Positions 41,592 through 57,852 of a stretch of DNA of 64,000 nucleotides are shown here, one piece after another. The stretch is from Pyramidobacter porci. GTDB lineage: Bacteria > Synergistota > Synergistia > Synergistales > Dethiosulfovibrionaceae. Every line of letters begins with the position of its first letter. The stretch's first letter is position 1. The stretch is from positions 124,001 to 188,000 of the forward strand of contig NZ_VUNH01000003.1 in the NCBI RefSeq assembly GCF_009695745.1, read 5' to 3'. Made by a program: the position numbers and the translations under genes. The notes beneath the pieces are model-generated. The model saw nothing but the letters and a program-made list of their open reading frames with translations, was not told the origin of the DNA and did no database searches.

Positions 41592-41933
41592 CCGGAGTGG
41601 TCCTGATAGTCGCTGCCGTGCGAACGGGAGAGGAAAGTCCGGGCTCCACAGGGCAAGACGCTGGATAACGTCCAGTTGGCGCGAGCCACAGGAAAGTGCA
41701 ACAGAGAGCAGACCGCCCGGTTCCCGCACCGGGTCAGGGTGAAAGGGTGGGGTAAGAGCCCACCGGGCGACAGGCGACTGTCGTGCCTGGCAAACCCCGT
41801 CTGGAGCAAGATCGAATAGGGAGGGCCGAGGCTGCCCGCTGACCTCCGGGTACAGATCGCTTGAGACATGCAGCAATGCATGTTCTAGATAAATGACTAT
41901 CCCAGACAGAACCCGGCTTACGGGCCACTCCGT
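41592..41933 (+). ncRNA. rnpB: RNase P RNA
   Basis: About 342 bases. The universal core is directly visible: GAGGAAAGTCCGGGCTCC near the 5' end, the ACAGGGCA segment, the AGGGTGAAAGGGTGGGGTAAGAG region (as two short blocks), and the 3' signature ACAGAACCCGGCTTA. The termini pair through GGAGTGGTCC (41594-41603) and GGGCCACTCC (41922-41931), forming P1. It is the catalytic RNA that matures the 5' ends of tRNAs with the RnpA protein encoded at 16.9 kb. Ends are estimated to within a few bases. Confidence 0.95.
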
Positions 41934-42044
41934 CATTCCGTAAAAATATAAACAGCTTAAAAGTCCCATGTTACACAAATAATATTTTGAATTATCTGCA
42001 TTTATCCTGTAATTAATAATTCTAAGATTTCGATAATTTATCAT
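41934..42044. other. AT-rich block between rnpB and the mraZ promoter region
   Basis: About 110 bases that are mostly A and T (e.g. ATAATATTTTGAATTATCT, TAATTAATAATTC), in strong contrast to the surrounding GC-rich sequence. No open reading frame, tRNA or repeat is recognised in it. Confidence 0.6.
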
Positions 42045-42080
42045 GGATCTTCCCCAGCTTGGGGAAGATCCAATTTTTTT
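42045..42080 (+). terminator. rho-independent terminator downstream of rnpB
   Basis: A perfect 11-bp stem (42045-42055 with 42061-42071), 5-base loop, then AATTTTTTT. It isolates rnpB from the cell wall cluster. Confidence 0.9.
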
Positions 42081-42178: not shown

Positions 42179-42207
42179 TTGACCCTCCTCGAAAAAAACG
42201 ATATTCT
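42179..42207 (+). promoter_or_regulatory. Promoter of the division/cell wall cluster
   Basis: -35 TTGACC (42179-42184), 17-base spacer, -10 TATTCT (42202-42207). Predicted start near 42214. Confidence 0.75.
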
Positions 42208-42214
42208 GGCCACG

Positions 42215-42238
42215 GTGGAGTAAAGTGGTAGAAAGTGG
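42215..42238 (+). promoter_or_regulatory. MraZ operator (three GTGG repeats, 10-bp period)
   Basis: GTGG occurs at 42215, 42225 and 42235, each followed by six bases, and the last two are preceded by AAA (AAAGTGG). This matches the phased direct-repeat operators described for MraZ and lies between the -10 and the mraZ start, ideal for autorepression. Confidence 0.75.
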
Positions 42239-42249
42239 GGAAAATGGAC

Positions 42250-42681
42250 ATGTTCATGGGAAGCTACGACCATCGCATAGACAACAAGGGACGACTCGTC
42301 ATGCCGGCGAAGTTTCGTTCCCAGATGGGGGACACCGTGGTCTGCACGGTGGGCCTCGATAATTGTCTTGCCGTCTACCCCATGGACGCGTGGAACGTAT
42401 ATCTGCAGAAGCTCCAATCGCTGCCATTCACCAAGGGACAGGCCCGCCAGTTTATGCGCACGCTGCTTGGGGCGGCGGAGGAACTTCCCGTGGATGGGCA
42501 GGGACGCATTCTGCTTTCTGCAAAACTGCGCAAATATGCGCTGTTAAGCGACGCGGTCGTCGTCAATGGAGTCAACGATCATCTGGAAATCTGGAACAGC
42601 GAGAAATGGGCCGCCAGTAATGACGAAATGCTGGAGAACTTCACTTCCCTGGCCGAGGGGGTGTCGGATCTTGGAGTTTGA
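42250..42681 (+). CDS. mraZ: Transcriptional regulator MraZ
   Basis: A 143-residue DNA-binding protein with two AbrB-like MraZ repeats: MFMGSYDHRIDNKGRLVMPAKFR (short blocks of the first) and the second around ELPVDGQGRILLSAKLR. ATG 42250 is chosen over 42244 and GTG 42235 because family members begin MFMG and GTGGGG lies 9 bases upstream. It represses the cluster it heads by binding phased GTGG-type repeats, which are visible just upstream. It may also pair with rsmH; the two overlap by 11 bases. Confidence 0.95.
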   Translation: MFMGSYDHRIDNKGRLVMPAKFRSQMGDTVVCTVGLDNCLAVYPMDAWNVYLQKLQSLPFTKGQARQFMRTLLGAAEELPVDGQGRILLSAKLRKYALLSDAVVVNGVNDHLEIWNSEKWAASNDEMLENFTSLAEGVSDLGV

Positions 42682-43612
42682 GCACGTTCCCGTGCTCCTG
42701 ACGAAAGTCGTCGAGAGCATGGATCTCAAAGCCGACGCGTTGATCGTCGACGGCACGCTGGGATTGGGCGGTTATTCGGAAGCGTTTTTGAAGCGCTCTC
42801 CCCGGTGGAGGGTCATTGGCATCGATCGTGATGAACGGGCGCGAGACATCGCCCGTCAGCGGCTGGCCCCTTTTGGGGAACGTTTTTTGGCTCTCGACGG
42901 AGATTTTCGGAACATGAGAGAACTTTGCGCGTCTGTCGAGATTCAGACAGTTGACTGTGTGGTGCTCGATCTGGGCGTGTCGAATATGCAGCTGGCCGAC
43001 AGTCAACGCGGTTTTTCATTCCGCGAGGACGGGCCGCTGGATATGCGGATGAATCCCGCTGGAGGAGCTCGAGCGGCGTCGGAATTAGTGAATGAACTTT
43101 CGCGAGAATCTCTGACGGATATTTTTCGAAAGTACGGTGAAGAGCGTTTCGCCTGGAGCATCGCCGGCGAGATCGTCAAAGAACGGCTGAAAAGGCCGAT
43201 AGCGACCACGGCGGAACTGGTCGATGTGATCCGCCGGGGGATTCCCGCCCCGGTGATGCGCAAGATGAACGGCCATCCGGCGCGCAAGGTGTTCCAAGCC
43301 TTGCGGATTGCGGTGAACGACGAACTGGGCGCGCTGGAGCGGGGCTTGAGCGAAGCTTTTTCGCTCCTGGTAGAGGAAGGGCGGCTGCTTGTCGTGACGT
43401 ACCACTCGTTGGAGGACCGCATCGTCAAGCGGCGGTTTAAGGAGTGGAACGAAGAGGGGAAAGGCGTTCTGGAGCCGCGAAAGGGACAGGTTCCTGACGA
43501 CGAGGAAGTGGAACGCAACCCGAAGTCGCGTAGCGCACGGCTTCGCGGCTTTCTCAAGAAAAACATGTCGAACAAGGTGAAAGGGCGGATCGGACCATGG
43601 CGCAGGGTGTAA
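42671..43612 (+). CDS. rsmH: 16S rRNA (cytosine1402-N4)-methyltransferase RsmH
   Basis: A 313-residue SAM methyltransferase, likely from TTG 42671 (MEFEHVPVLLTKVVES) with GAGGGGG upstream, overlapping mraZ. Class I methyltransferase motif I is VDGTLGLGGYSEAFL; then IGIDRDERA, VVLDLGVSNMQLA, RGFSFREDGPLDMRMN, and the late VTYHSLEDRIVKRRF block complete the family signature. It methylates N4 of C1402 in the ribosomal P site. The 3' end overlaps ftsL by 16 bases. Confidence 0.96.
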   Translation: MEFEHVPVLLTKVVESMDLKADALIVDGTLGLGGYSEAFLKRSPRWRVIGIDRDERARDIARQRLAPFGERFLALDGDFRNMRELCASVEIQTVDCVVLDLGVSNMQLADSQRGFSFREDGPLDMRMNPAGGARAASELVNELSRESLTDIFRKYGEERFAWSIAGEIVKERLKRPIATTAELVDVIRRGIPAPVMRKMNGHPARKVFQALRIAVNDELGALERGLSEAFSLLVEEGRLLVVTYHSLEDRIVKRRFKEWNEEGKGVLEPRKGQVPDDEEVERNPKSRSARLRGFLKKNMSNKVKGRIGPWRRV

Positions 43613-43962
43613 GATATTCGAGAAGAAATTCCGGGAAGTTTGGACAGGCGTTAGTGATGTTCTTTATCACTTCAATTATGTGTCTGGGGCTTCTGTCGAT
43701 GCTGAGGAACGATTCTCAGCGGATGGATGAGGCTATCTCTGCGGTTCAGGGACAGCTGGATACGTGCGAGAAAGAATGCCGCGATCTGGAGCGCGAAGCG
43801 GCGGCCATGATGTCGCCCCGCGTGATCTATACTTATGCGGCCCATCAGCTCGGCATGACTCAGGTTCATCTGGCGGGCGCCGTCCGTCTGGATGGCGTCG
43901 GGCGCTCCAGCGGCACAAGGGCCGCTTCTCTGATCGGTTCGGAAGTCGTGTTGTCTCGTTAA
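43597..43962 (+). CDS. ftsL: FtsL-like cell division protein
   Basis: A 121-residue bitopic membrane protein in the usual ftsL position between rsmH and the penicillin-binding protein. A short basic cytoplasmic N-terminus, one hydrophobic helix (about 15-36, ALVMFFITSIMCLGLLSML), then a coiled-coil heptad segment (RMDEAISAVQGQLDTCEKECRDLEREAA). FtsL recruits FtsW/FtsI with FtsB and FtsQ at the septum. Sequence conservation of this family is low, so the name rests on topology, size and synteny. Confidence 0.8.
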   Translation: MAQGVRYSRRNSGKFGQALVMFFITSIMCLGLLSMLRNDSQRMDEAISAVQGQLDTCEKECRDLEREAAAMMSPRVIYTYAAHQLGMTQVHLAGAVRLDGVGRSSGTRAASLIGSEVVLSR

Positions 43963-44009
43963 TGATGATAATGGGGAATCGCTTTTGACGGAGAACGGGT
44001 GACGAGGAA

Positions 44010-45704
44010 ATGCCGGAAGGGAGAACGGGTGAGACGAAAAGAGAGCCGTGCTGCAGAAAAATTCAGTGGTGTCTCGTCTTTATCGTGATGGCCTGGTATC
44101 TGGCCGCGCTGGTGAAGGTCCATATTTACCCGGATCGTCGGGCGGCCGAGCAGCTCGCCAAGCAATATCAGCAGAACGAGCGCAAGGCGATGGACCGGGG
44201 CAGCATCTATGACGGCCGCGGCGAGCCGCTGGCTCTCTCCGTTACGACATACAGCGTGTTTCTCGATCCGGGAGTGGAAGGTTTTGAGCCCGGCAGTCTC
44301 GACAATCTGGCGCCTTATATCGGCAAGGTGAAAGTGCAGGCCCTGGGCAAAAAATTGGATCGTCGCTTTTATTGGATCAAACGTTATCTTGAGCGCAGCG
44401 AAGCAGAAGAGATCGTAAAGAACTGCGGCAAGGGATTTTACATCAGAGAGGAACGCAAACGGATCTACCCGAAGGGAAATATGCTTTCACACCTGCTGGG
44501 ATTCTGCGATCAGGACGGCTGGGGGCTTGCCGGCATCGAGCTGATGTGGAACGGCACGCTGGTGGTTCCCGAAAAAATGCACACGAGTTACCGTGGCGCG
44601 CCGGCGGCCGTGGACGTGACGCAGGGGGCGAAGTCCCACAGCGGAAAGCAGGGATTGTACCTGACCATCGATTCTGAAATACAATATGCAATAGAGCGTT
44701 TTCTTGGCGCTCAAGCCGCCGAGATCAAGGCTCCCTGGGCGGCGGGAATTTGTCTGGAAACGAGGACCGGCGCCATCAAGGCCATGGCCAGTTATCCCGT
44801 TTTCGATTCAAACAATCGTTCTACATTCAAGAATCTGAAAGCCTTGAGCAACAATGCCGTAAACCGGGTGTACGAACCGGGGTCGACCTTTAAACCCATT
44901 ATGGTCGCCATGGCGCTTGAACAGGGAAGAGTGAAACAGGGCGATTCATTCCGTTGTCCCGCGCATTTGAAGGTGGCCGACGGTTATATCAGCGATTCCC
45001 ATCCGAAGGACAACGGCGTCATGAAGGTGGCACAGATCATCGAAAAATCGTCGAACGTGGGCATGGCCCAGATCGGCATGAAAATGCCTCCCTTCAGTAC
45101 GTATGAGGAAATGCGCTCTTGGGGGATCGGTTCCCGCACGGGCATCAAACTGAACGGTGAGGAAGTGGGGCTGTTGCCGACGGCTGACAAGTGGTACGGG
45201 ATCACTCCGGCGAACGTCGCCATCGGGCAAGGTTTCGCGGTGACGCCGCTTCAGCTTGTCACGGCTTTCAACGCTATCGTCAACGACGGCGTGCTCCTCC
45301 GTCCTTATCTGGTGCGTTCGGCCGTCGACGGCGAAGGGCATCAGGTGTATCACTCCGAACCGATGGAGGTGAACCGCGTCGTCTCGCCGCGAAATTCCAA
45401 ATGGCTTCGCGGCGTCCTGCGCCAGGTAGTGGTCAGCGGCACGGGCAAACCGGCCGACAGCGAGCTGGTCCACGTAGCCGGAAAAACCGGTACCGCTCAG
45501 GTTGCCCGGAACGGGAAGTACGTCAAAGGGCTTTACAATTCGTCCATGATCGGCTTCTGGCCCGCGAACGATCCTGAGTATACCATGCTGATCGTTTTCG
45601 GCGATGTGACGGGCAGTTTGTACTACGGCGGTCCCGTCGCCGGTTCGGTTTTTAAAAAAATTGTCGACGAAGTGGAACGTCTGAAGGGCATCGGAGTCAA
45701 GTAA
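44010..45704 (+). CDS. ftsI: Septal peptidoglycan transpeptidase (penicillin-binding protein 2/FtsI)
   Basis: A 564-residue class B penicillin-binding protein. One N-terminal transmembrane helix (about 20-38) precedes the pedestal domain (RGSIYDGRGEPLALSV near 53-68). The transpeptidase domain shows the active-site serine S292-T-F-K295 in YEPGSTFKP, the SSN motif in IIEKSSNVGMAQ and the KTGT box. FtsI cross-links septal wall and partners FtsW, also encoded in this cluster. The length is typical. A PASTA domain is absent. Confidence 0.94.
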   Translation: MPEGRTGETKREPCCRKIQWCLVFIVMAWYLAALVKVHIYPDRRAAEQLAKQYQQNERKAMDRGSIYDGRGEPLALSVTTYSVFLDPGVEGFEPGSLDNLAPYIGKVKVQALGKKLDRRFYWIKRYLERSEAEEIVKNCGKGFYIREERKRIYPKGNMLSHLLGFCDQDGWGLAGIELMWNGTLVVPEKMHTSYRGAPAAVDVTQGAKSHSGKQGLYLTIDSEIQYAIERFLGAQAAEIKAPWAAGICLETRTGAIKAMASYPVFDSNNRSTFKNLKALSNNAVNRVYEPGSTFKPIMVAMALEQGRVKQGDSFRCPAHLKVADGYISDSHPKDNGVMKVAQIIEKSSNVGMAQIGMKMPPFSTYEEMRSWGIGSRTGIKLNGEEVGLLPTADKWYGITPANVAIGQGFAVTPLQLVTAFNAIVNDGVLLRPYLVRSAVDGEGHQVYHSEPMEVNRVVSPRNSKWLRGVLRQVVVSGTGKPADSELVHVAGKTGTAQVARNGKYVKGLYNSSMIGFWPANDPEYTMLIVFGDVTGSLYYGGPVAGSVFKKIVDEVERLKGIGVK

Positions 45705-45719
45705 GAGGAGTGCGTGACC

Positions 45720-47219
45720 ATGGATCGGCGATTAAAAAGAGGACTTGAAGATCTGAAAAATGCTGGGCTTCTGACAGATATCGGCGGTGACTGGAACAAA
45801 ATACCGGCGGACTGCACCCTGAAAAGCGACTCCCGGACCGTCGGCCCGGGAGATATTTTTGCTTGCGTCGTAGGGCTTCATGCGGACGGGCATCGTTTCA
45901 TCGAGCAGGTGCTGAAAGCCGGTGTGTCGTATCTTTTGATTCAGCGCCCTGTGTCGGGACTGCCGATCCCTTGGATCCAGGTAACCGACGTCCGGGCGGC
46001 GATGGGATATATCGCCGCGGCTTTGAACGAAGAGCCGTCTGAAAAGATGAAAATGTTCGCCGTTACGGGAACGCAGGGCAAAAGCACCACCAGCTACATG
46101 GTGCGCAGCATTCTGCAAAACTGCGGCGTCAAATGCGGCCTGCTGGGAACGATCGTTTACGACGACGGTTCCGCGTCTGTGCTCGCCGACCGCACGACGC
46201 CCGAGGGCAGCGAAATTCAGCAGTTCTTGAAAAGCATGGTCGAGAACGGCTGCCAGGCCTGTTCCATGGAATGCTCCTCGCACGGCATCGTGCAGGGACG
46301 TCTGAGCGGATGCGTTTACGACGGTGCCGTTTTCACCAATCTGACGCCCGAACATCTCGACTTTCACGGGACGATGGCGAATTACTACGAAGCCAAGGCG
46401 ACGCTGTTCCGCAAATATCTGAAGCCGGGCGCGGCCGTGGCGCCGAACGCCGCCAGCGAATACGGCCGCCGTCTTGCGGCCGAGTTTCCGGAGGCCATGA
46501 CCTGGGCTCTCGAAGCTCCGGCCCGCCTGCAGGGGACGAATGTAAAGCTCGATATCGACGGGAGCGAATTCGACCTGACCCTCGACGGGCGAAAGATGGG
46601 GCGCGTTCATATCCCGCTTTCGGGGCGCTATAACGTGGAAAACGCGCTTGGCGCGGCGGCCGTCTGTTTAGCCGAAGGCTGCGACGAAAAAAAAGTCGTC
46701 GCAGGTCTGGCTCTCATGCCTCAGGTGCCCGGACGCATGGAACGCCTGAATCTCGACAACGGCGTGCGCGTCGTCATCGATTACGCGCACACGGCGGATG
46801 CGCTGAAAGCGCTGTTGGAAACGCTGCGCCCGTTGACCGAAGGACGACTCGTCAGTCTCTTCGGGCACGGCGGCGACCGTTTCGCCGGGCATCGTCCGTT
46901 GCTGGGGCGGGCAGCGGCGCAGAAAGCCGATCGGATCTTCGTCACCATGGACAACCCGCGCACGGAAGATCCCGTAAAAATCGCCGAACAGATTATGGCG
47001 GGCATCAAAGAAGTTCGCGCCGACGATTGCTGGTCCATTGAACTTCCTCGAGACGCCGCGATCCGCAAGGCGCTGGACTGGTGCCGCCGCGGCGATCTGC
47101 TGGTGCTCTCCGGCAAGGGGCCGGAAGCGTATCTGGAAATCAACGGTGTCAAATATCCTTACAGCGACCGGTCGGTCGTCGAGGGCTGGAGCTGCGAGAG
47201 GGGAGTGAAGATCCGGTGA
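45720..47219 (+). CDS. murE: UDP-MurNAc-tripeptide ligase MurE (meso-DAP type)
   Basis: A 499-residue Mur ligase. ATG 45720 lies 9 bases from AGAGGAG; GTG 45714 would be only 3 bases away. Features: P-loop TGTQGKSTTSY, the ECSSHGIVQGRL segment with carbamylated-lysine-type chemistry, TPEHLDFHGTM, and D411-N-P-R414, the motif that selects meso-diaminopimelate in MurE. It adds the third peptide residue to the wall precursor in the cytosol. The DNPR reading predicts DAP-type peptidoglycan. GTGA overlap with murF. Confidence 0.95.
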   Translation: MDRRLKRGLEDLKNAGLLTDIGGDWNKIPADCTLKSDSRTVGPGDIFACVVGLHADGHRFIEQVLKAGVSYLLIQRPVSGLPIPWIQVTDVRAAMGYIAAALNEEPSEKMKMFAVTGTQGKSTTSYMVRSILQNCGVKCGLLGTIVYDDGSASVLADRTTPEGSEIQQFLKSMVENGCQACSMECSSHGIVQGRLSGCVYDGAVFTNLTPEHLDFHGTMANYYEAKATLFRKYLKPGAAVAPNAASEYGRRLAAEFPEAMTWALEAPARLQGTNVKLDIDGSEFDLTLDGRKMGRVHIPLSGRYNVENALGAAAVCLAEGCDEKKVVAGLALMPQVPGRMERLNLDNGVRVVIDYAHTADALKALLETLRPLTEGRLVSLFGHGGDRFAGHRPLLGRAAAQKADRIFVTMDNPRTEDPVKIAEQIMAGIKEVRADDCWSIELPRDAAIRKALDWCRRGDLLVLSGKGPEAYLEINGVKYPYSDRSVVEGWSCERGVKIR

Positions 47220-48586
47220 GACTGAGTCGATTGGCGTCGCAGGCCGGCGTGACGGTGAAGGGAACCGACCCCGAGCTGCCTCTGGTCATTCGGGTGGACA
47301 GCCGCGAAACGCAGAAAGGCGAAGGCTTTGTGGCGCTTCACGGCACCAAGGTCGACGGGCACCGCTTCATTCCCGACGTGCTTGCGAAGGGGGCCTCGCT
47401 GATCGTCTGCGAGGCGGCGGCATATCAAGAGGAATGGAGCTCGCTGTATCCCCAATGCGCTTTTGTCCTGACGCCGGAACGCTGCGAATTCGGCCTTGCC
47501 TCTTTGGCCTCGGCCTATCTGAGATCGCTGGAGCATCTGCGCGAAACGATTGCCATCACGGGCAGCGTCGGAAAAACTTCCGCGAAAAACGATACGAAAG
47601 CTCTTTTGGAAGATTATTTTAAACTTCACGTTGCCGGAGGCAACTATAATACGCTCATCGGCTGTGCCGTGACGGTGCTGGCCGCACCGACAGACACGGA
47701 AGTCATGCTGTTGGAAATGGGCGCCAATCATCGCGGGGAAATCGCCGCGATGGTGAGTTATCTGCCGCCGACGATCGCTGCGATCACCGAGGTGGCGCCG
47801 GCCCATCTGGAAAGTTTCGCTTCCCTTGAAGGCGTGCTTCAGGCCAAATCGGAAATTTTGGCGTCGAAAAATCTGCGCTGCGCCGTGATCAACGGCGACA
47901 ACGAAATGCTCTGTACGCGCGCCGAAGAGTTGGGACTGCCGGAAGTAATCCGTTTCGGCCGTTGCGGCGAAGTGCTCTTTGCCCGCGAGCGATTGAGCTG
48001 GGAAAAAGATCATTTTACGGTGCGCGCGATCCTGACGGGGCTGGACGGTTTGTCGTTCAACCTTTCTCTGCCGTTGGCCGGCGTGCATCAGCTCTATCCG
48101 CTCTGCTGCGCCATCGCCATCGCGGGGCGTCTGGGACTTTCCAGCCGCGAGATCGCGGCGTCGTTGCCCAAGTGCCGCAACAGCGCCGGACGCGGCGAAG
48201 TGCGTCTGTCCGAAAGCGGCGCGGCGATTCTCGACGAATGTTACAATGCCAGTCCAGCCGCTGTGAAAGCGTCTCTGGCCGCCATGGACTCCGCCGACAT
48301 CCCGGGGCGCCGTTTTTTGATCCTCGGCGAAATGCTGGAGCTGGGAACGGCGTCAGTTTCGGAACACGGCAGGATCTTTGAGCGGGCGCTTCAAGTCAGC
48401 GACCTGCTGTATCTCTTCGGCGAAGAATGGAAAAACGTCGAGGGGGCGGCGGATTATTACTACGACTCCATCGATGCGCTGATCGAGGCGGTGGATAGGA
48501 CGCGGCCGGGCGAAGGCGACGTGATTCTCGTCAAGGGCTCGCGCGGCAATCATCTCGAACGCGTGGTCAAGGCGCTTGAATTATGA
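47216..48586 (+). CDS. murF: UDP-MurNAc-tripeptide:D-Ala-D-Ala ligase MurF
   Basis: A 456-residue Mur ligase; GTG 47216 overlaps the murE stop and has AGGGGAG upstream. N-terminal recognition domain with RVDSRETQKGEGFVAL, P-loop TGSVGKTSAKN, EMGANHRGEIAAM and the C-terminal ILDECYNASPAAVKASL and LVKGSRG segments. It adds D-Ala-D-Ala to complete the pentapeptide. D-Ala-D-Ala ligase itself (ddl) is not in the cluster. Confidence 0.95.
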   Translation: MRLSRLASQAGVTVKGTDPELPLVIRVDSRETQKGEGFVALHGTKVDGHRFIPDVLAKGASLIVCEAAAYQEEWSSLYPQCAFVLTPERCEFGLASLASAYLRSLEHLRETIAITGSVGKTSAKNDTKALLEDYFKLHVAGGNYNTLIGCAVTVLAAPTDTEVMLLEMGANHRGEIAAMVSYLPPTIAAITEVAPAHLESFASLEGVLQAKSEILASKNLRCAVINGDNEMLCTRAEELGLPEVIRFGRCGEVLFARERLSWEKDHFTVRAILTGLDGLSFNLSLPLAGVHQLYPLCCAIAIAGRLGLSSREIAASLPKCRNSAGRGEVRLSESGAAILDECYNASPAAVKASLAAMDSADIPGRRFLILGEMLELGTASVSEHGRIFERALQVSDLLYLFGEEWKNVEGAADYYYDSIDALIEAVDRTRPGEGDVILVKGSRGNHLERVVKALEL

Positions 48587-49548
48587 CGATGACGATGATG
48601 CAGCCTCTGCTGATCTTTTGCGTGATTTTTTTCTGCGAAATCGCCGCTCAACGTTCGTGGATCGTTTGGATGCGACAGCGTCATGTGTCTCAGGTGCAAA
48701 AAGCCTATGGAACGCACATTGACGAAGAGGTCAAGGCGAACGTGCCGTCCATGGGCGGCGTGGTCTTTCTGCTGATCGGCTCGGGGCTTCTGATCAGTCA
48801 AATGATCCAGGGCCATCGTTCCGGTGTGGTTTTCTGGTCCTATCCGATCCTTGCGGCGATGGTTGGCCTGGCCGACGACATGCTGAAATTCAAGAACAAA
48901 TCCAGCGAGGGACTGCGCAGCATGCAGAAATTTATCCTGCAGGCGGCAACTACGCTTCTGTGGTTCCTTTTGCTGGGACTGGACGGCACGATTCCCTCCC
49001 TCTGGGGCGGCTGCTCGATTGGCCACTGGATTTGGCCCGTCGCGTTGTTTTTTGCCGTCGGAATACAGAATTCGGTGAACGTGACTGACGGTCTTGACGG
49101 CCTCGCTGCCGGGGCAAGCGCGATCACTTTCGCGGCGCTCTATCTTCTGTCGCCTGATTCCGGTTATTACGGAACCGCCGCCGGCGCCGCCATCTCGCTG
49201 GGCTTCCTGTGGCACAACTGTCACCCTGCCCAAGTCTTTATGGGCGACGTAGGGGCACATTTCCTGGCCGGACTGATGGCGTCCTGCGCTTTTATGGGGA
49301 CCGGCGTACTGGTTCTTGTTCCCGTCGGCATGGGATTCGGTTTGGAAATGCTCTCGGTCGTGATTCAGCTGATTGCCATTCACGGGTGGGGCAAGCGGGT
49401 GTTCAGGATGAGCCCGATCCATCATCATTTTCAGCTTCTCGGCTGGCCCGAAGATCGTATTGTCGTCCGCTTTTGGATGATTCACGCGCTCTGTCCCCTG
49501 TTCTGCGCAGCCTTTGCGTATTGTCTGCTGCATTTCCTGCTTGTCTGA
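48583..49548 (+). CDS. mraY: Phospho-N-acetylmuramoyl-pentapeptide transferase MraY
   Basis: A 321-residue polytopic membrane enzyme starting in an ATGA overlap with murF. Ten or so helices and the family boxes PSMGGVVFLL, NVTDGLDGLAAG, MGDVGAHFLAG and SPIHHHFQLLGWPE are present; the aspartates and histidines in these boxes bind Mg2+ and UDP-MurNAc-pentapeptide. It makes lipid I on undecaprenyl phosphate at the inner membrane. The sequence is somewhat shorter than E. coli MraY (360). Confidence 0.95.
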   Translation: MTMTMMQPLLIFCVIFFCEIAAQRSWIVWMRQRHVSQVQKAYGTHIDEEVKANVPSMGGVVFLLIGSGLLISQMIQGHRSGVVFWSYPILAAMVGLADDMLKFKNKSSEGLRSMQKFILQAATTLLWFLLLGLDGTIPSLWGGCSIGHWIWPVALFFAVGIQNSVNVTDGLDGLAAGASAITFAALYLLSPDSGYYGTAAGAAISLGFLWHNCHPAQVFMGDVGAHFLAGLMASCAFMGTGVLVLVPVGMGFGLEMLSVVIQLIAIHGWGKRVFRMSPIHHHFQLLGWPEDRIVVRFWMIHALCPLFCAAFAYCLLHFLLV

Positions 49549-49608
49549 CCGGACGGGATTGCCGTCGTCTGAGTCTGCCTGCGGCGCACGGTGAAGGAAG
49601 GGGTTTGG

Positions 49609-50919
49609 ATGGTTCATAAGATTACTGTTGTCGGCGCCGGCGTCAGCGGACAGGCGTTGGCGCTTTGGGCGGCCCAATGCGGCGCCAGCGTTTTCGTGAC
49701 TGACTGCCGGGCGGAACTTCCTCGTCAGACGCAGGAGCTCTTCAGCAAGGCGAGAATTCAATGGGAAGTCGGCGGCCATACCCCCAGATGTTGCCAGTGC
49801 GACCTGATGGTGGTAAGCTCGGGCGTCCCGGAAAAGTCCGAGGCGGTACGACTGGCCCGCGTTGCAAACGTTCCCGTGCAGGGAGAACTTGATCTCCTTG
49901 CGTCACATCTCAAAGGAAAAATAATCGCCGTGACGGGCACCAATGGCAAGACAACCTGTACGGCGCTGATTGCCCATCTGTTGCAAAGTTGCGGTCTGAA
50001 TGCCGTCTCTGTGGGGAACATCGGCGATCCCTTGGCGGCCCATGCGGATCGGAGTTACGACGCCATCGTGATGGAGCTGAGCAGTTTTCAGCTGCACTGG
50101 AACACGCAGCTCAGACCGGACGTTGCCGTCCTGACGAATCTGGCCCCCGATCATCTTGACTGGCATGGCAGTTATGAGAACTACAAAAGCGACAAGTGCA
50201 GGATCTTTCTGCCCCGTGAGGGGGAGTGCTACGCGGTGACGCATGACATCGACGCGTTCCGCGTCCCGGCGGGACGTACCGTTTGCGCGCTGGGACGCGG
50301 CAATTTGAGGATCGACATGGACGGCAGCGATGTGCTTCTGGTCGATCGCGAAAGACGCCGCCTGTTGTTCCATAAAAGCTCGTTGAAACTGCTCGGCGCC
50401 CATAATTTGGAAAATGCCGCCATGTCTTGTGCCGCCGTGGCGCTTGCGTTTCGCGACATCGATCCCTCCGCGGGGCTTGCCAGTTTTGAAGTCCTCCACC
50501 ATCGCTGTGAACCGGTGGGCGAACGGAATGGCGTCCTTTACATCGACGATTCCAAAGGAACCAACGTGGCCGCTGTGATCGCAGCTTTGCACAGCATCAG
50601 CGGCCGCAAACTCATCATCCTTGGCGGCCAGGGCAAGGGCGAACGCTATGATGAACTTGCCCGAGTCGTGTGCGAAGAGACGTTTGCCGCGATTGTGATC
50701 GGTTCCGAAGCCGAAAAAATTTTTGCGGCGCTGCTGGCTGCCGGTTACAGACATGCCGTGCGGGCGAACGATATGAGCGAAGCTGTGAAGAAAGCCTCGA
50801 AACTTGCCGGCCCCGGCGATAAAGTCCTTCTTTCTCCCGCCTGCACAAGCTGGGACATGTATCATAGTTATGAAGAACGGGGAGATCATTTTGCCCAACT
50901 CGTCAGAACGCTATTCTAA
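49609..50919 (+). CDS. murD: UDP-MurNAc-L-alanine:D-glutamate ligase MurD
   Basis: A 436-residue Mur ligase, ATG 49609 after GGAAGGGG. The N-terminal Rossmann-like domain (VVGAGVSGQALALWA) binds UDP-MurNAc-Ala; the P-loop is TGTNGKTTC (about 109-117), followed by ELSSFQLHW, TNLAPDHLDWHGS and the C-terminal IDDSKGTN and LLSPACTSWDM boxes diagnostic of MurD. It adds D-glutamate. It overlaps ftsW by 29 bases. Confidence 0.96.
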   Translation: MVHKITVVGAGVSGQALALWAAQCGASVFVTDCRAELPRQTQELFSKARIQWEVGGHTPRCCQCDLMVVSSGVPEKSEAVRLARVANVPVQGELDLLASHLKGKIIAVTGTNGKTTCTALIAHLLQSCGLNAVSVGNIGDPLAAHADRSYDAIVMELSSFQLHWNTQLRPDVAVLTNLAPDHLDWHGSYENYKSDKCRIFLPREGECYAVTHDIDAFRVPAGRTVCALGRGNLRIDMDGSDVLLVDRERRRLLFHKSSLKLLGAHNLENAAMSCAAVALAFRDIDPSAGLASFEVLHHRCEPVGERNGVLYIDDSKGTNVAAVIAALHSISGRKLIILGGQGKGERYDELARVVCEETFAAIVIGSEAEKIFAALLAAGYRHAVRANDMSEAVKKASKLAGPGDKVLLSPACTSWDMYHSYEERGDHFAQLVRTLF

Positions 50920-52000
50920 CCAGATAAGAGGGGCGCGGTTTTATAATCGCGACGCCGGCAGCGGGAGCGTTTTTGGACTGTGGATTGTGCCCTTGATCCT
51001 TTCCACGTTGGGCGTTGTTGTGGTCTCGTCGATGACGGGCTGGGATCTTTCTTCGCCGGGATTGAAGCAGGCGCTGTGGCTCATGGTAGCTTTGACGGGG
51101 TTTATCGTGGTGACGCAGGTGCCGCTGAGTTTCTGGTCGAAACACAGCGTTTTTTTGCTGGCCGTGGCCTTTGGGCTGCTGGCGATGACGGTTTTTTCTC
51201 CGTTGAAAGTCGTCGTCAAAGGGGCTTCCCGATGGATTCGCCTTGGTCCAGTCAACTTTCAGCCGTTGGAAGTCGTGAGCTTTGTGATGATGATTCATCT
51301 TGGCAAAGTCTATATGCGGGTGAACAGCATGTGGAAAGCGCTGATCCTTAGCGGCATCCTGTTTGCTCCTTTTGCCCTGATCATCATGAAACAACCTGAC
51401 TTTGGCGGCTTGCTGCTGCTCGTGGGCATCGTCGGCGCTCTTTTCATCGAACGGTACGGCATCTTGTTGCCGCTGATTACGGGAATTGCCGTATCTCCGG
51501 TGCTATGGTACATGGCGAATTATGGATATCGCGCCGAACGGATCGAAACATGGCTCGACCCTTGGACCGATCCGCTGGGTTCCGGCTATCAGGTCATTCA
51601 GGGACTGATCGCTTTTGCCAACGGGCGAATATGGGGCATCGGTCTTGGGCGGGGCCAGCAGTTCTTGCCGGAAGTACATAACGACTTTATTTTCCCTGCT
51701 CTTGGAGAACAGTTGGGGCTTGTCGGCACGATGAGCGTTTTTCTTCTGTTTGTGTTTTGGACGCTGCGCGTCTATGCCGCATACAGAAAAGCGACGCCGG
51801 AACGGCGTATTCTCATCTGGGGATGCTGCGTCGCGGTACTGCTGCCATTTTTCATCAATCTGGGCGGCGTCATGAAACTGATCCCTCTGACAGGCATGCC
51901 TCTGCCGTTTATCAGCTACGGAGGCACCTCGCTGGTATTCATGTGGGCAAGGATCGGTCTGCTGATCAGACTGATCAAAGAACCGATAGAAGGCGCGTAG
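50891..52000 (+). CDS. ftsW: Septal SEDS glycosyltransferase FtsW
   Basis: About 369 residues with 9-10 membrane helices. TTG 50891 is preferred because GGGGAG lies 6 bases upstream; ATG 50870 has no ribosome site. SEDS landmarks include GASRWIRLGPVNFQPLE, MKQPDFGGLLLL, WLDPWTDPLGSGYQ, GLGRGQQFLPEVHNDFIF and PLPFISYGGTSL. FtsW polymerises lipid II at the septum together with FtsI, whose gene is upstream. The start overlaps murD. Confidence 0.94.
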   Translation: MPNSSERYSNQIRGARFYNRDAGSGSVFGLWIVPLILSTLGVVVVSSMTGWDLSSPGLKQALWLMVALTGFIVVTQVPLSFWSKHSVFLLAVAFGLLAMTVFSPLKVVVKGASRWIRLGPVNFQPLEVVSFVMMIHLGKVYMRVNSMWKALILSGILFAPFALIIMKQPDFGGLLLLVGIVGALFIERYGILLPLITGIAVSPVLWYMANYGYRAERIETWLDPWTDPLGSGYQVIQGLIAFANGRIWGIGLGRGQQFLPEVHNDFIFPALGEQLGLVGTMSVFLLFVFWTLRVYAAYRKATPERRILIWGCCVAVLLPFFINLGGVMKLIPLTGMPLPFISYGGTSLVFMWARIGLLIRLIKEPIEGA

Positions 52001-52014
52001 AGGAGGACGGTGAC

Positions 52015-53052
52015 GTGACGTACAGAATCCTGCTGGCTGCCGGGGGGACCGGCGGTCATATCATCCCGTCCGTTGCTTTCGGCTTGTGGCTGCAGAAGCG
52101 GGGCGAATCTGTCATTTGGCTCTCGGGCAGCCGCCCGCTGGAAGATGAAATTTATAAGGCTCATGGCGTAGTTCCTCGAAGATTGTCTCTGGAAGGTTCT
52201 CCTTTGGGAGTGTCCGGCCTGCGTTCGCTGAAGCGCTGGAAACACCTTTTCAGTTCTTTTTTCGAGGCGCGCGCGATTTTAAAGAAAGAACGGATCGACC
52301 GTTGTGTGCTGTTTGGCGGTTATCTTTCGATGCCCGTCTTGCTGGCGGCGCGTTGCCTCCATGTTCCCGTGCTCATGCATGAACAGAATACCGTAGCGGG
52401 GAAGGTCACCCGTTTTGCGGCCAGATGCGGTATTCCTGTCGCTTGTGCCTGGGAAGAGTGCAAGGGACTGGGCACGGCAAAAAAAATTGTGACGGGGATG
52501 CCGTTGCGCGAGATCCACCTGATCGATAAAAAGGACGCCCAGAAACGGCTGCTGGGGACGCTTCTGGGCGATGACGAAAAATTGATTATTATTTTGGGCG
52601 GCTCTCTGGGGAGCGGCGGCATGAGAAAAGTGCTGCAAGATGCACAAAATATGATAAAATCAACGAGTTATAAAGTCTTGTGTATGGGAATCAAGGACGA
52701 AGACCGTCCTTTCCCCGAAGCGTTGACTCATGAAGCCTGCTGGGACATGGCGACGGTGTTTTCTGCAGCGGACATGATTATCTGCCGAGCTGGAGCTTCG
52801 ACACTGGCCGAACTTCGGGCTCTGGGAATCCCGGCGCTCGTCGTGCCGTGGTTAAAAGCCGCTCGACAGCATCAGTTGAGCAACGCCCAATATTTCTCCA
52901 AATTGACGGGAGCCCCCGTCTTCTTGGAGGGCTCTTCTCAAGAACAGTTTCGTGCGGCCTTGCAGTCTGTTGCAGAGCGGCGCATGAGCTGTGAGGATTC
53001 GAGCGCAGGCGCGGTAAAACTTTATGAAGCCTTGCGCAGCCTCACAGTTTGA
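52015..53052 (+). CDS. murG: UDP-GlcNAc:undecaprenyl-PP-MurNAc-pentapeptide GlcNAc transferase MurG
   Basis: A 345-residue GT28 enzyme, GTG 52015 with AGGAGG 8 bases upstream. The N-terminal glycine loop AAGGTGGHIIPSVA and the VLMHEQNTVAGKVTRF segment, then the second Rossmann domain with LGGSLGS and ICRAGASTLAELRALGIPALVVPW define MurG. It converts lipid I to lipid II on the inner face of the membrane. It is followed by murC after 14 bases. Confidence 0.95.
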   Translation: MTYRILLAAGGTGGHIIPSVAFGLWLQKRGESVIWLSGSRPLEDEIYKAHGVVPRRLSLEGSPLGVSGLRSLKRWKHLFSSFFEARAILKKERIDRCVLFGGYLSMPVLLAARCLHVPVLMHEQNTVAGKVTRFAARCGIPVACAWEECKGLGTAKKIVTGMPLREIHLIDKKDAQKRLLGTLLGDDEKLIIILGGSLGSGGMRKVLQDAQNMIKSTSYKVLCMGIKDEDRPFPEALTHEACWDMATVFSAADMIICRAGASTLAELRALGIPALVVPWLKAARQHQLSNAQYFSKLTGAPVFLEGSSQEQFRAALQSVAERRMSCEDSSAGAVKLYEALRSLTV

Positions 53053-53066
53053 AAGGGGAATCCCAC

Positions 53067-54497
53067 GTGAGTCGAAAAAAAATAGATCTGGGCAGTATCA
53101 AGAACATCCACCTTATGGGTGTTGGCGGAGCGGGGATGAGCGGGCTGGCACTGCTTTTCCACGAGTTGGGCTTCAATGTCAGCGGTTGCGATATGGGGCG
53201 CACGGCTTACGTCGAAAAGCTGGAGAAAGCCGGCGTAAAAATCCTTTACGGACACGACGTGCGCCATTTGGATGAGTGCGGAGTCGATTTGCTGGCGTAC
53301 AGCAGCGCTATCCCCGCGTCCAATCCCGAGCTGGCCGAGGCGCGCAGGAAAGAGATTCCTGTGATGCAGCGGGCCGAGCTGCTGAGTCTGCTCTTCGACT
53401 CCAAGAACGGCATCGGCGTGGCCGGAACACACGGCAAAACGACGACGACTTCGCTAATCAGCTATATTCTTGAGCAAGCCGACATGCAGCCCACCATTGC
53501 GGTCGGAGGAGAACTGTGCGACATCGGATGCAACGCCAAGCTCGGCATGGGTGAGTATATGGTCGCCGAGCTTGACGAAAGCGACGAGTCTTTTGAGTAT
53601 TTTCACCCTCTTTACTCCGTCGTGACCAACGTCGATTGGGATCACGTGAATCATTATCCCGATCTTCAGGCCGTCATCGATGCCTTTGGTCGTTTTCTTT
53701 GCAACACCAAGGAAGGCGGTAAACTCTTCCTATGTGGAGAGGATGCCGGAGTTAAAAAGGTGATCGAAGCGCTTCCGGACGATTTGAAGAATCGCGTGCA
53801 TCTTTTTGGGCGCGACCCTTCGTTCGATTTTTACGCCGCGGACATCCAGTATCACTGCGGCGGCGGTTTGAATTACAGTTTCTATGCGAAAGGCCGGAAG
53901 ATGGGAACCATTGAGCTGGTGATTTCCGGCGAACATAATGTTCTCGATTCTCTGGCGGCATGTGGCGTCGCTCATGAACTGGGAGTTTCCTTCGACATCG
54001 TTCAAAAGGCCATGAGAATGTTTCATGGGGCGAAGCGGCGTCTCCAGCTGCGCGCCATGTGTCCGGACAATATCTTGGTATACGACGATTATGGACACCA
54101 TCCCCGCGAGATCGAGGCGACGCTGAACGCGGTCCGGCTTATGTACCCTGACCGTCGAATCCTGTTGATATTTCAGCCTCATCGCTACACGCGGACCCAG
54201 GCTCTTTTCGATCGTTTCGCGGAAGTGCTGGCCAGCGTGCCTCAGGTCGTGCTGCTGCCGATCTATGCGGCGGACGAGCAACCGATTCCCGGCGTGTCGT
54301 CCGAACTGATCGGCGCCACAGTGGCCAAACGTGGCGGCAACTGCGTTCTCGCTCAGAATAAAGTTGAAGCAGCGGGAAGAGTCATGTCGCTGGTTCGTCC
54401 CGGCGACTTGATTCTGACTGAAGGGGCGGGCGATGTCTGTGTGATTGGAGATCTGGTCATTCAAGAGTTGAACAGGAGTTTTGCGTCAGCTCTTTGA
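53067..54497 (+). CDS. murC: UDP-MurNAc:L-alanine ligase MurC
   Basis: A 476-residue Mur ligase from GTG 53067 (AAGGGGA upstream). The N-terminal NAD-like loop MGVGGAGMSGLALL, P-loop GTHGKTTTTSL, the ELDESDESF and TNVDWDHVNHY segments, DDYGHHPREIEATL and the C-terminal FQPHRYTRTQAL and TEGAGDV boxes are canonical. It adds L-alanine to UDP-MurNAc, the first Mur ligase step. In many bacteria murB and/or ddl follow here; neither does. Confidence 0.96.
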   Translation: MSRKKIDLGSIKNIHLMGVGGAGMSGLALLFHELGFNVSGCDMGRTAYVEKLEKAGVKILYGHDVRHLDECGVDLLAYSSAIPASNPELAEARRKEIPVMQRAELLSLLFDSKNGIGVAGTHGKTTTTSLISYILEQADMQPTIAVGGELCDIGCNAKLGMGEYMVAELDESDESFEYFHPLYSVVTNVDWDHVNHYPDLQAVIDAFGRFLCNTKEGGKLFLCGEDAGVKKVIEALPDDLKNRVHLFGRDPSFDFYAADIQYHCGGGLNYSFYAKGRKMGTIELVISGEHNVLDSLAACGVAHELGVSFDIVQKAMRMFHGAKRRLQLRAMCPDNILVYDDYGHHPREIEATLNAVRLMYPDRRILLIFQPHRYTRTQALFDRFAEVLASVPQVVLLPIYAADEQPIPGVSSELIGATVAKRGGNCVLAQNKVEAAGRVMSLVRPGDLILTEGAGDVCVIGDLVIQELNRSFASAL

Positions 54498-54523
54498 CAT
54501 CTTAATTTTTGTGGGGGCGGGCA

Positions 54524-55285
54524 ATGCGGAAAAGATTGCGGTGGTGCATATACTCTTTTTTAACGGGATCTTTTCTGTGCCTGAACGATCGTTTTCAACC
54601 CTTTCGCCTGAAGTCGTTGCAGGTTGAGAATTTTTCGGCCGAATTCGAGATGAATCTGCGCGATTGGAGCGAGTCATTCCTGAATTTTCATCCGGCATGG
54701 CTTCTGGCGAAAAGCGAGCTCAAAAGCTATGAACGGCAGTACCCCTTTGCGATAGAAACGCAATGGAGCCCTTTTCGCGGCGCCCTGAAACTGACCGCGG
54801 TCCCTTTTGTCCCGGTCATGAAAATCGTCTGGCAGCATGCCGAGTATCTTATCGCGCAGGACGGTGCGGCATGGCGCCGCGATTTATGGGACAAGGTGCT
54901 GACCGCGGAAATTCCGCAGCTCCCTGAACTTCGGGTAGGAAATACGTTCCCCTTGCTCGAGGATCTAGGACTCAACGGAGTTACTCATTTGACGGTTCCG
55001 TATCAATGGCTTGATTCACTGCAGCAGACCCTGCTTTCCCAGAAGGACCTGAAAGTTTCCGACGTTGAACTGCTCCGCCGCGGCGGAGAGGATGTGATCG
55101 CCTGTGTTTTTGAAAACATAAGGACAAAAAGCCGGTCGTCTTTTATTGGAAAAGTGTCTCGTCTTGAAAAAAGTCTCATCGTCGTGAGAGAATTGACTGG
55201 CGCGAAACCAGGACAAAAAACGTCGATAGATGCGACGTACGAAGATAAAATAATTATTAAGAAAGATAGTGTCATCCCTGAATGA
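54524..55285 (+). CDS. ftsQ: FtsQ/DivIB-like division protein
   Basis: About 253 residues, ATG 54524 behind a G-rich site. A basic N-terminus and a short hydrophobic helix (about 7-22, WCIYSFLTGSFLCL) precede an extracytoplasmic part in which LKSLQVENFSAE could start the POTRA domain. Similarity to known FtsQ/DivIB is poor; the assignment rests on single-pass topology and location directly before ftsA. FtsQ links FtsL/FtsB to the early divisome. Confidence 0.68.
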   Translation: MRKRLRWCIYSFLTGSFLCLNDRFQPFRLKSLQVENFSAEFEMNLRDWSESFLNFHPAWLLAKSELKSYERQYPFAIETQWSPFRGALKLTAVPFVPVMKIVWQHAEYLIAQDGAAWRRDLWDKVLTAEIPQLPELRVGNTFPLLEDLGLNGVTHLTVPYQWLDSLQQTLLSQKDLKVSDVELLRRGGEDVIACVFENIRTKSRSSFIGKVSRLEKSLIVVRELTGAKPGQKTSIDATYEDKIIIKKDSVIPE

Positions 55286-55312
55286 CGTTTAAGGGTAAAG
55301 GAGAGAGAATTC

Positions 55313-56620
55313 ATGGGCAGAGATTCTGACATCCTGGTGGGACTTGATCTCGGTACGAAGAAAATAGCCGTGGCAGTTGCCGAACGAGCGCCGGAAAATC
55401 CCGATAAAGCTCAGATCATAGGCATAGGACAGGCGCCTTCTCGAGGTCTGCGCAAAGGCATGATCGTCAATCTCGATCAGGCGGTCAGTTCGGTCTCCGA
55501 CGCTATCGCCGATGCCGAGTCTATGCTCAGCGGTATAAAGATCAGCCGCGCTGTGGTCGCTTTCAGCGGTATCGACGTAAAATGCCACGTGCTGAAGGGG
55601 AAAATTTCCCTGGGGCGTTCACCGCGCCAGATCATGGCCGAAGACATCGAACGGGTCATCGAGACGGCGCTGAGCGAGCTTCAGCTGCCGCCGAGCAGTT
55701 GCTGCCTCCATTCAATTCCCATTAAATATGCTCTCGACGGAAACAGCGGGATCGACAACCCTTTGGAGATGACGGGCATCCGTCTGGAGGTCGAACTGAC
55801 GGCGCTCGTAATCCCTACTACTGTAGCGCAAAATGTGGTAAACTGTGTAGAAAAAGCGGGAGTCTCTGTCGTTGGCCTTGTTCTGAAACCTGTCGCCGAA
55901 GCTTTGGGAACGCTGAGCGCCGACGAGCGGGCGATGGGCGCCTCCCTTGTGGCGATTGGCGGCGGAACGACGAGCGTGTCGATCTTTTCCGAAGGACATA
56001 TGGTTCACGCCGCGGAAATTCCCGTTGGCGGCGATCATATTACCAACGACATTTCCTGCGTCATGAAAATTCCCTTTGCGATTGCGGAAGAGCTGAAAAA
56101 AGATATCGACGTGGATCCGAAGGCGGAAACGGATGGATCGCTGACGGTGGAACACCGCGGCCGGAAGCGTGAACTCGGCAAGGAGGAAGTGGGGGAGATC
56201 ATTGCGAGCCGTCTGGACGAGCTTTTTGCTGACAGCGTTGTTCCCAGCCTCAAGGCTATCCAAAAGGCGGGTCTTCCCACTGACGTGATTCTGACGGGCG
56301 GCGTCGTGATGACCAAAGGTATCGTTCCGTTTGCCGATTCTTATTTGGGAACATCCGTGCGAGTCGGCGTGCCCGTGCTTCGGGAGGAGATGCAGCGAGG
56401 ACGCAATGACTGCCGTTACAGTGCCGTATCGGGGATCGTCGTATATCTGATGGAAAGAAGAAAGAATCCCTTTGCATACGTGGAAGCGCCTATGTCGATT
56501 TTCAAAAACATTGCCCCCGGCAAATCTTCTAAGAGAATGAAAGGTGCGAGAAGACCTTCTCAGTCGCCCCTTAAATCCTTTGCCCGCAATGCGAAAGAAC
56601 TTTTCAGAGAATTATTCTAA
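55313..56620 (+). CDS. ftsA: Cell division protein FtsA
   Basis: A 435-residue actin-like ATPase, ATG 55313 after AAAGGAGAG. N-terminal VGLDLGTKKIAVAVAE phosphate-1 loop, the 1C subdomain (about 85-165), IGGGTTSVSIF phosphate-2 loop, EIPVGGDHITNDIS and ILTGGVVMTKGI complete the fold. The basic amphipathic C-terminus (SFARNAKELFRELF) is the membrane-targeting helix. FtsA tethers FtsZ to the membrane; ftsZ follows after 14 bases. Confidence 0.95.
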   Translation: MGRDSDILVGLDLGTKKIAVAVAERAPENPDKAQIIGIGQAPSRGLRKGMIVNLDQAVSSVSDAIADAESMLSGIKISRAVVAFSGIDVKCHVLKGKISLGRSPRQIMAEDIERVIETALSELQLPPSSCCLHSIPIKYALDGNSGIDNPLEMTGIRLEVELTALVIPTTVAQNVVNCVEKAGVSVVGLVLKPVAEALGTLSADERAMGASLVAIGGGTTSVSIFSEGHMVHAAEIPVGGDHITNDISCVMKIPFAIAEELKKDIDVDPKAETDGSLTVEHRGRKRELGKEEVGEIIASRLDELFADSVVPSLKAIQKAGLPTDVILTGGVVMTKGIVPFADSYLGTSVRVGVPVLREEMQRGRNDCRYSAVSGIVVYLMERRKNPFAYVEAPMSIFKNIAPGKSSKRMKGARRPSQSPLKSFARNAKELFRELF

Positions 56621-56634
56621 GGAGGACCGGTTCC

Positions 56635-57807
56635 ATGGACGACAGCGAGATCTTCTCGATCACCAACGATGCACCCCTTGAGGATGACGATATCAGCACC
56701 TTAGTTCCTCGAGAAGTTATCAAGGTTATAGGTGTCGGCGGCGCCGGCGGCAACGCACTGAATACGATCATTCGCAGCGGCATCGACGACGTGGATTTTA
56801 TTGCCGGCAACACCGACGTTGCGGCGCTGCGGCTTTCGGAGGCCTCGTCGAAACTGATCCTGGGGCGCAATCTGACCAAAGGGCGGGGCGCCGGTGCGAA
56901 TCCCAGCGTGGGACAAGACGCGGCTCAGGAGTCTGAGGAGGAAATCACGAACCTTCTCGAAGGGGCCGACATGGTCTTCATCACCGCCGGTATGGGCGGT
57001 GGCACTGGTACAGGCGCGGCTCCCGTGATCGCCGGCATCGCCAAGGAAAAGGTCGGCGCGCTGGTCGTCGCGATCGTAACGTATCCTTTCAGCTGGGAGG
57101 GACCGAAGCGCATTCGGCAGGCGACCGAGGGCATCAGCAGACTGCGCGAGAAAGTCGACGCTCTGGTCATCGTGCACAACGACCGCATCATTGAGCTCTC
57201 CGATAAATCGACGACGTGGCAGGAAGCCTTCAAGATGAGCGATGAAGTCCTTCGGCAGGCCGTCGCCGGCGTGACGGGCGTCATTCGCAAGATCATGCAG
57301 GTCAACGTGGATTTTGCGGACGTGTGCACGATCATGCGCGACGCGGGGACGGCGATCATGGGAGTCGGCGAAGCCAAGGGCGATGGCCGCGTGCTCGCGG
57401 CGGCCCGCGCGGCGATGAACGGGCCGCTGATGACGTCGCCGATGAACGGTGCTTCCTCCGTACTGTACTGTATCGAGTCCGGCGAAGACCTGAGCATTCT
57501 CGAGATGAACGAAGCGGCGAAGTTGATCTCCGCTTCCGCCCGCGAGGACGCGAACATCATCTGGGGACAGGGCATTGATCCCTCGATGGGCGATACCGTG
57601 CGCTTTACCTTGATCGCTACGGGATTCAAGGACATCCTTGCCGATAAGAACGACACCAAGGCGCAGGCCGGGGCAGATTCCGCCGGCTTGTTCGAGAAAC
57701 AGAACCTGACGCCCAGCGACGTGGTTTCGGAAGAGCCTCACAGTATTTTTGAAGGGCTTGGCTCTGGACTTGATATCCCGACGACTTATAGACGCCGCAA
57801 AAAGTAA
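56635..57807 (+). CDS. ftsZ: Cell division GTPase FtsZ
   Basis: A 390-residue tubulin homologue, ATG 56635 with [20 protein letters not shown], the G-box GGGTGTG (about 121-127), the ARAAMNGPL-type region and the T7 loop with [11 protein letters not shown] (co-catalytic aspartate) are present. The C-terminal tail [12 protein letters not shown] is the conserved peptide that binds FtsA. FtsZ forms the division ring. It ends the classic cluster; a hairpin follows. Confidence 0.98.
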
Positions 57808-57820
57808 CGAGGATTTTCGG

Positions 57821-57852
57821 ACGGGGACAAGTCTGCTTGTCTCCGTTGTTGT
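57821..57852 (+). terminator. Hairpin after ftsZ
   Basis: An 11-bp stem with one G-T pair (57821-57831 with 57836-57846) and a T-rich tail (TGTTGTTTAT). It may partially end the cell wall transcript. Confidence 0.6.

Follow-up and report, generated by a model that had tools for sequence, protein, structure and literature searches.

A predicted three-box MraZ operator ahead of the division and cell-wall gene cluster of Pyramidobacter porci

Three direct repeats with a GTGG core, spaced at a period of 10 bases, are found between the predicted promoter of mraZ and its start codon in Pyramidobacter porci, a member of the Synergistota. These repeats are interpreted as a three-box MraZ operator, through which MraZ would lower the transcription of its own gene and of the cluster behind it in an autorepression loop, a reading for which a probability of about 0.93 is estimated from the sequence evidence. 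The sequence of the repeats, their spacing, their uniqueness in the genome, their conservation and the joint loss of array and mraZ have been observed. The features of the window (the whole stretch of 64,000 nucleotides that was analysed) are collected in Table 1.

Table 1. Features around mraZ, in window coordinates
Feature	Position	Strand	Basis
rnpB (RNase P RNA class A)	41593..41936	+	301.8 bits
Terminator-like hairpin between rnpB and the mraZ promoter	42044..42072	+	13 pairs, then ATTTTTTTGC
Predicted sigma-70-type promoter, TTGACC-N17-TATTCT	42179..42207	+	9/12 matches
MraZ box 1, GTGG core without AAA	42215..42218	+	Predicted; present in 6/6 genomes of the genus
MraZ box 2, AAAGTGG	42222..42228	+	Predicted from sequence and spacing
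MraZ box 3, AAAGTGG	42232..42238	+	Predicted; runs into the Shine-Dalgarno-like GTGGGG (42235-42240)
Possible degenerate fourth box, AAAATGG	42241..42247	+	Weak, not conserved
mraZ, 143 aa	42250..42681	+	TIGR00242, 137.3 bits over a cut-off of 98.35; PF02381
Division/cell-wall gene cluster	42680..57807	+	Profile matches and gene order

Read directly from the window sequence, the cores occupy positions 42215-42218, 42225-42228 and 42235-42238, confirming the initial annotation, which had described three GTGG units at an exact 10-base spacing, the last two as AAAGTGG. When compared with AAAGTG(G/T) direct repeats of period 10, two of the three units are full and the first is reduced to GTGG; the array is located between the predicted -10 and mraZ. 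The 64 kb window contains a single GTGG-N6-GTGG-N6-GTGG, against a mean of 0.01 in 100 dinucleotide shuffles, and the whole genome (2,525,102 bases) likewise has one, the reversed-pattern control giving 0 matches there. The exact sequence AAAGTGGNNNAAAGTGG also has a single genomic match, the window site, and a genome-wide search for further MraZ targets gave no excess, with 12 matches at two mismatches or fewer versus 19 in the reversed control. The candidate for a fourth box lies 9 bp after box 3 in the window, and an ATGG is found 10 bp after box 3 in only three of the six genomes of the genus, which makes this fourth box doubtful. A period-9 run, GTGGCCGAAGTGGCCGAAGTGG, was also seen at locus L095 (G000:C4:40475-40496, minus strand); it is possibly a coding repeat, and bears nothing on the period-10 boxes.

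Transcription is expected to start about 7 nt past the -10, near the first repeat. A promoter of the form TTGAC-N17-TAnnnT is present in all 11 mraZ-bearing genomes of the window's family, in all of which the -10 is followed at a distance of 4 to 9 nt by the first in-phase core (RTGK and TTGG counted), and the array takes up the leader as far as the ribosome site; within the genus, three boxes are clear. GTGGGG is the sole Shine-Dalgarno-like stretch ahead of the mraZ start codon at 42250, besides which a second in-frame ATG exists at 42244.

The protein encoded by mraZ scores above the cut-off of the equivalog model and contains the DxxxR motif, the signature of the MraZ family, in each half (D11-R15 and D82-R86), both motifs being invariant in the eight MraZ sequences aligned. 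Its closest named relative is that of Pyramidobacter sp. C12-8 (97%), and the solved MraZ structures 1n0e, 9qlr, 9qlg and 9sx6 match it. Downstream, rsmH, an ftsL-like gene, ftsI/PBP, murE, a Mur ligase gene (murF by order), mraY and murD are followed by ftsW, a murG-like gene, another Mur ligase gene (murC by order), an ORF, ftsA and ftsZ. From mraZ at 42250 to the end of ftsZ at 57807, this agrees with the cluster of about 15 kb that had been described, and a terminator-like hairpin is located just past ftsZ (57820-57847). The ORF between the last Mur ligase gene and ftsA (54509-55285) has no Pfam match, and its place in the gene order suggests an FtsQ/DivIB-like protein.

In the 35 loci considered for rnpB adjacency, out of the 49 mraZ loci in the order, rnpB immediately precedes mraZ, with both on one strand, in 29 (the window, 19/20 and 9/14). 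As exceptions, it is on the opposite strand in L087, and none was found in the stretch examined for L028, L017, L088, L094 and L023; two of these loci lacking rnpB, L017 and L023, have a tRNA-Sec gene ahead of mraZ. Several relatives contain a palindrome-like stretch of the GGGACTAAAGGGCC type, situated 26-27 nt ahead of the first box, which initially suggested an activator site similar to the DosR/DevR box. This idea was abandoned after folding: in a number of the relatives with this stretch, it makes up the 3' arm of an extended hairpin between rnpB and mraZ, and it is therefore read as the rnpB terminator. This fold is clearest in G020, G029, G051, G022, G031 and G017, and no clear hairpin was obtained at this stretch on folding G038 and G057, taken as examples.

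The conservation of the array was analysed in 61 genomes (the own genome and 60 relatives), of which 49 have a MraZ match and 12 have none. When GTG(G/T) cores at a spacing of exactly 10 bp are counted over the 80 bases preceding mraZ, at least two cores are in phase in 46 of the 49 mraZ-bearing genomes, at least three in 36 and four in 12; at the other periods from 6 to 15, no run of three cores was found in any of these 49. Likewise, GTGG pairs separated by 4-25 bp in the 70 bases before mraZ accumulate at a spacing of 10 (62 pairs) and 20 (42 pairs), the next being a spacing of 8 with 8 pairs, and the control stretch from -300 to -100 contains zero such pairs. The three exceptions (G006, G008 and G033) lack any in-phase pair of GTGK, but do have three RTG(G/T) in phase. 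The box consensus obtained from 64 boxes, with one genome per genus from 23 of 24 genera and G033 left out, is AAAGTGG, in agreement with the published mollicute site (AAAGTGKN3)3 (PMC5282649).

A second set of 43 loci, drawn from several phyla and including Bacilli, Lachnospiraceae and Actinomycetota, shows the same arrangement, with at least two period-10 cores within 150 bases in 43/43 and at least three in 41/43. This set was compared with other periods, not with shuffles, and at those periods at most 8 loci have two cores in phase and none has three. It has to be noted that three of the 43 are Pyramidobacter relatives counted twice (L032, L033 and L034 repeat G004, G003 and G001), that L002 repeats L001, that the position of L063 was shifted by 9 nt and that L075 was dropped, having no upstream sequence. 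An attempt to refute the initial annotation through a lack of conserved spacing or sequence in relatives thus failed, in 46/49 genomes and in all 43 loci.

The strongest evidence for the repeats as putative MraZ operators is the loss of the array together with mraZ. Among the 12 genomes without a MraZ match, three were dropped for having no rsmH match (G013, G035 and G041) and one for a partial rsmH in a short locus (G023), leaving eight scorable genomes, two from the window's family (G009 and G012) and six from genus g5 of family f3, which represent about two independent loss events. A search of the 700 bases preceding the rsmH match found no pair of GTG(G/T) or RTG(G/T) cores at a 10 bp spacing in any of the eight, so that at least two phased GTGK occur in 46/49 genomes with mraZ versus 0/8 scorable genomes without it. 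In G009 and G012 (L108 and L107), mraZ is missing between rnpB and rsmH, rnpB is still just upstream, and a promoter of the window type, TTGACT-N17-TAATGT, begins 91 nt ahead of the match to the rsmH domain. Therefore, the array goes with mraZ while the promoter can stay, and these relatives constitute a natural experiment supporting a function of the boxes. In G006 and G008, congeners of G009 and G012, mraZ is kept and the boxes are degenerate, as if MraZ control were decaying in this genus.

The binding site of mollicute MraZ reportedly goes back to a 2016 study by Fisunov, and the Escherichia coli mraZ promoter site is said to come from one by Eraso in 2014. The mollicute site is given as (AAAGTGKN3)3 (PMC5282649), and in Mycoplasma genitalium AAAGTG[T/G] repeats occur once in the chromosome, before mraZ, the dcw transcripts being higher without MraZ (PMC8475190). 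The window site shares with the mollicute one the core, the 7+3 unit, the period of 10, the three units and the location before mraZ, although its first unit lacks AAA and its host belongs to a different phylum. In Burkholderia cenocepacia, a fragment that MraZ binds carries four repeats of 7 nt set apart by 3-nt spacers, located past the -10 and across the start site (PMC7761207). Direct repeats of 7 nt, 3-nt spacers and a position downstream of the -10 are common to both sites, whereas three repeats are clear in the window, its start site is predicted, and the site is known from sequence, while binding was shown in B. cenocepacia. In E. coli, where MraZ is described as repressing the first 11 genes of the dcw operon (PMC7761207), repeats also lie before the dcw cluster and downstream of the -10 in an autogenous arrangement, the comparison being one of descriptions, not of repeat sequences (PMC7761207, PMC8475190). 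The direct-repeat site of HsdC in Mollicutes similarly has GTG-type repeats over a promoter, but its spacing is 1 nt off that of the MraZ boxes and it controls restriction-modification genes (PMC5282649). The window site fits the known kind of MraZ operator in every testable feature; within the limited literature searched, no prior work on MraZ boxes in Synergistota was found.

The G-richness of the region before the start codon could favour a repeat arising by chance, an explanation of practically negligible probability when 0.01 arrays are expected per window and 0 were found in the reversed control over 2.5 Mb, and already refuted by a conservation that extends across the order and beyond. 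It is very unlikely that the repeats, being G-rich, serve translation initiation, as a Shine-Dalgarno stretch plus spacer unrelated to MraZ. Box 3 merges with GTGGGG, which lies 10-15 nt ahead of the ATG at 42250, and under a loose pattern a Shine-Dalgarno-like stretch overlaps the last in-phase box in 31/49 genomes; however, the two other cores, 25 and 35 nt before the start, are too distant for this role, the period of 10 is strict across genera, and the array vanishes together with mraZ even though a ribosome site is still required for rsmH. Since the last box sits at the ribosome site, some of the G-richness of box 3 could nevertheless serve translation.

An operator at which MraZ mainly activates, or a MraZ that also acts at many other promoters, is unlikely. 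The direction of control is unreadable from sequence, and in E. coli the influence of MraZ reaches about 23% of gene expression during early log phase (PMC7761207); on the other side, repression agrees with the position on the expected transcription start, the exact box pair has a single genomic occurrence with looser matches below the reversed control, and the MraZ proteins of E. coli and M. genitalium are reported as repressors (PMC8475190, PMC7761207). Against the operator reading itself count the absence of two in-phase GTGK in G006, G008 and G033, the lack of AAA in box 1, and a number of losses of only about two.

In the proposed autorepression loop, subunits of the MraZ ring would engage one GTG core after another, the cores being spaced by roughly one helical turn along a single face of the DNA. 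With its start region covered by bound MraZ, the mraZ promoter would be less active, and mraZ and the genes as far as ftsZ (42250-57807) would be transcribed less; we infer the binding, its stoichiometry, the repressive sign and a single transcript over 15 kb. It is rather improbable, but conceivable, that an operator in Synergistota lying wholly in the transcribed leader, merged with the ribosome site and directly behind the rnpB terminator, would also let MraZ block rnpB read-through, thereby tying division-gene output to RNase P RNA transcription.

The control of the cluster by MraZ in this lineage, as originally suggested, is an interpretation well supported by conservation and co-loss. 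Taking into account that the site occurs once in the genome, MraZ may directly control this operon alone, in line with what is reported for M. genitalium (PMC8475190). The known picture of MraZ regulation is left unchanged by a site of familiar type and low surprise; the MraZ operator is extended by sequence evidence to the Synergistota, where single-operon control would now be predictable.
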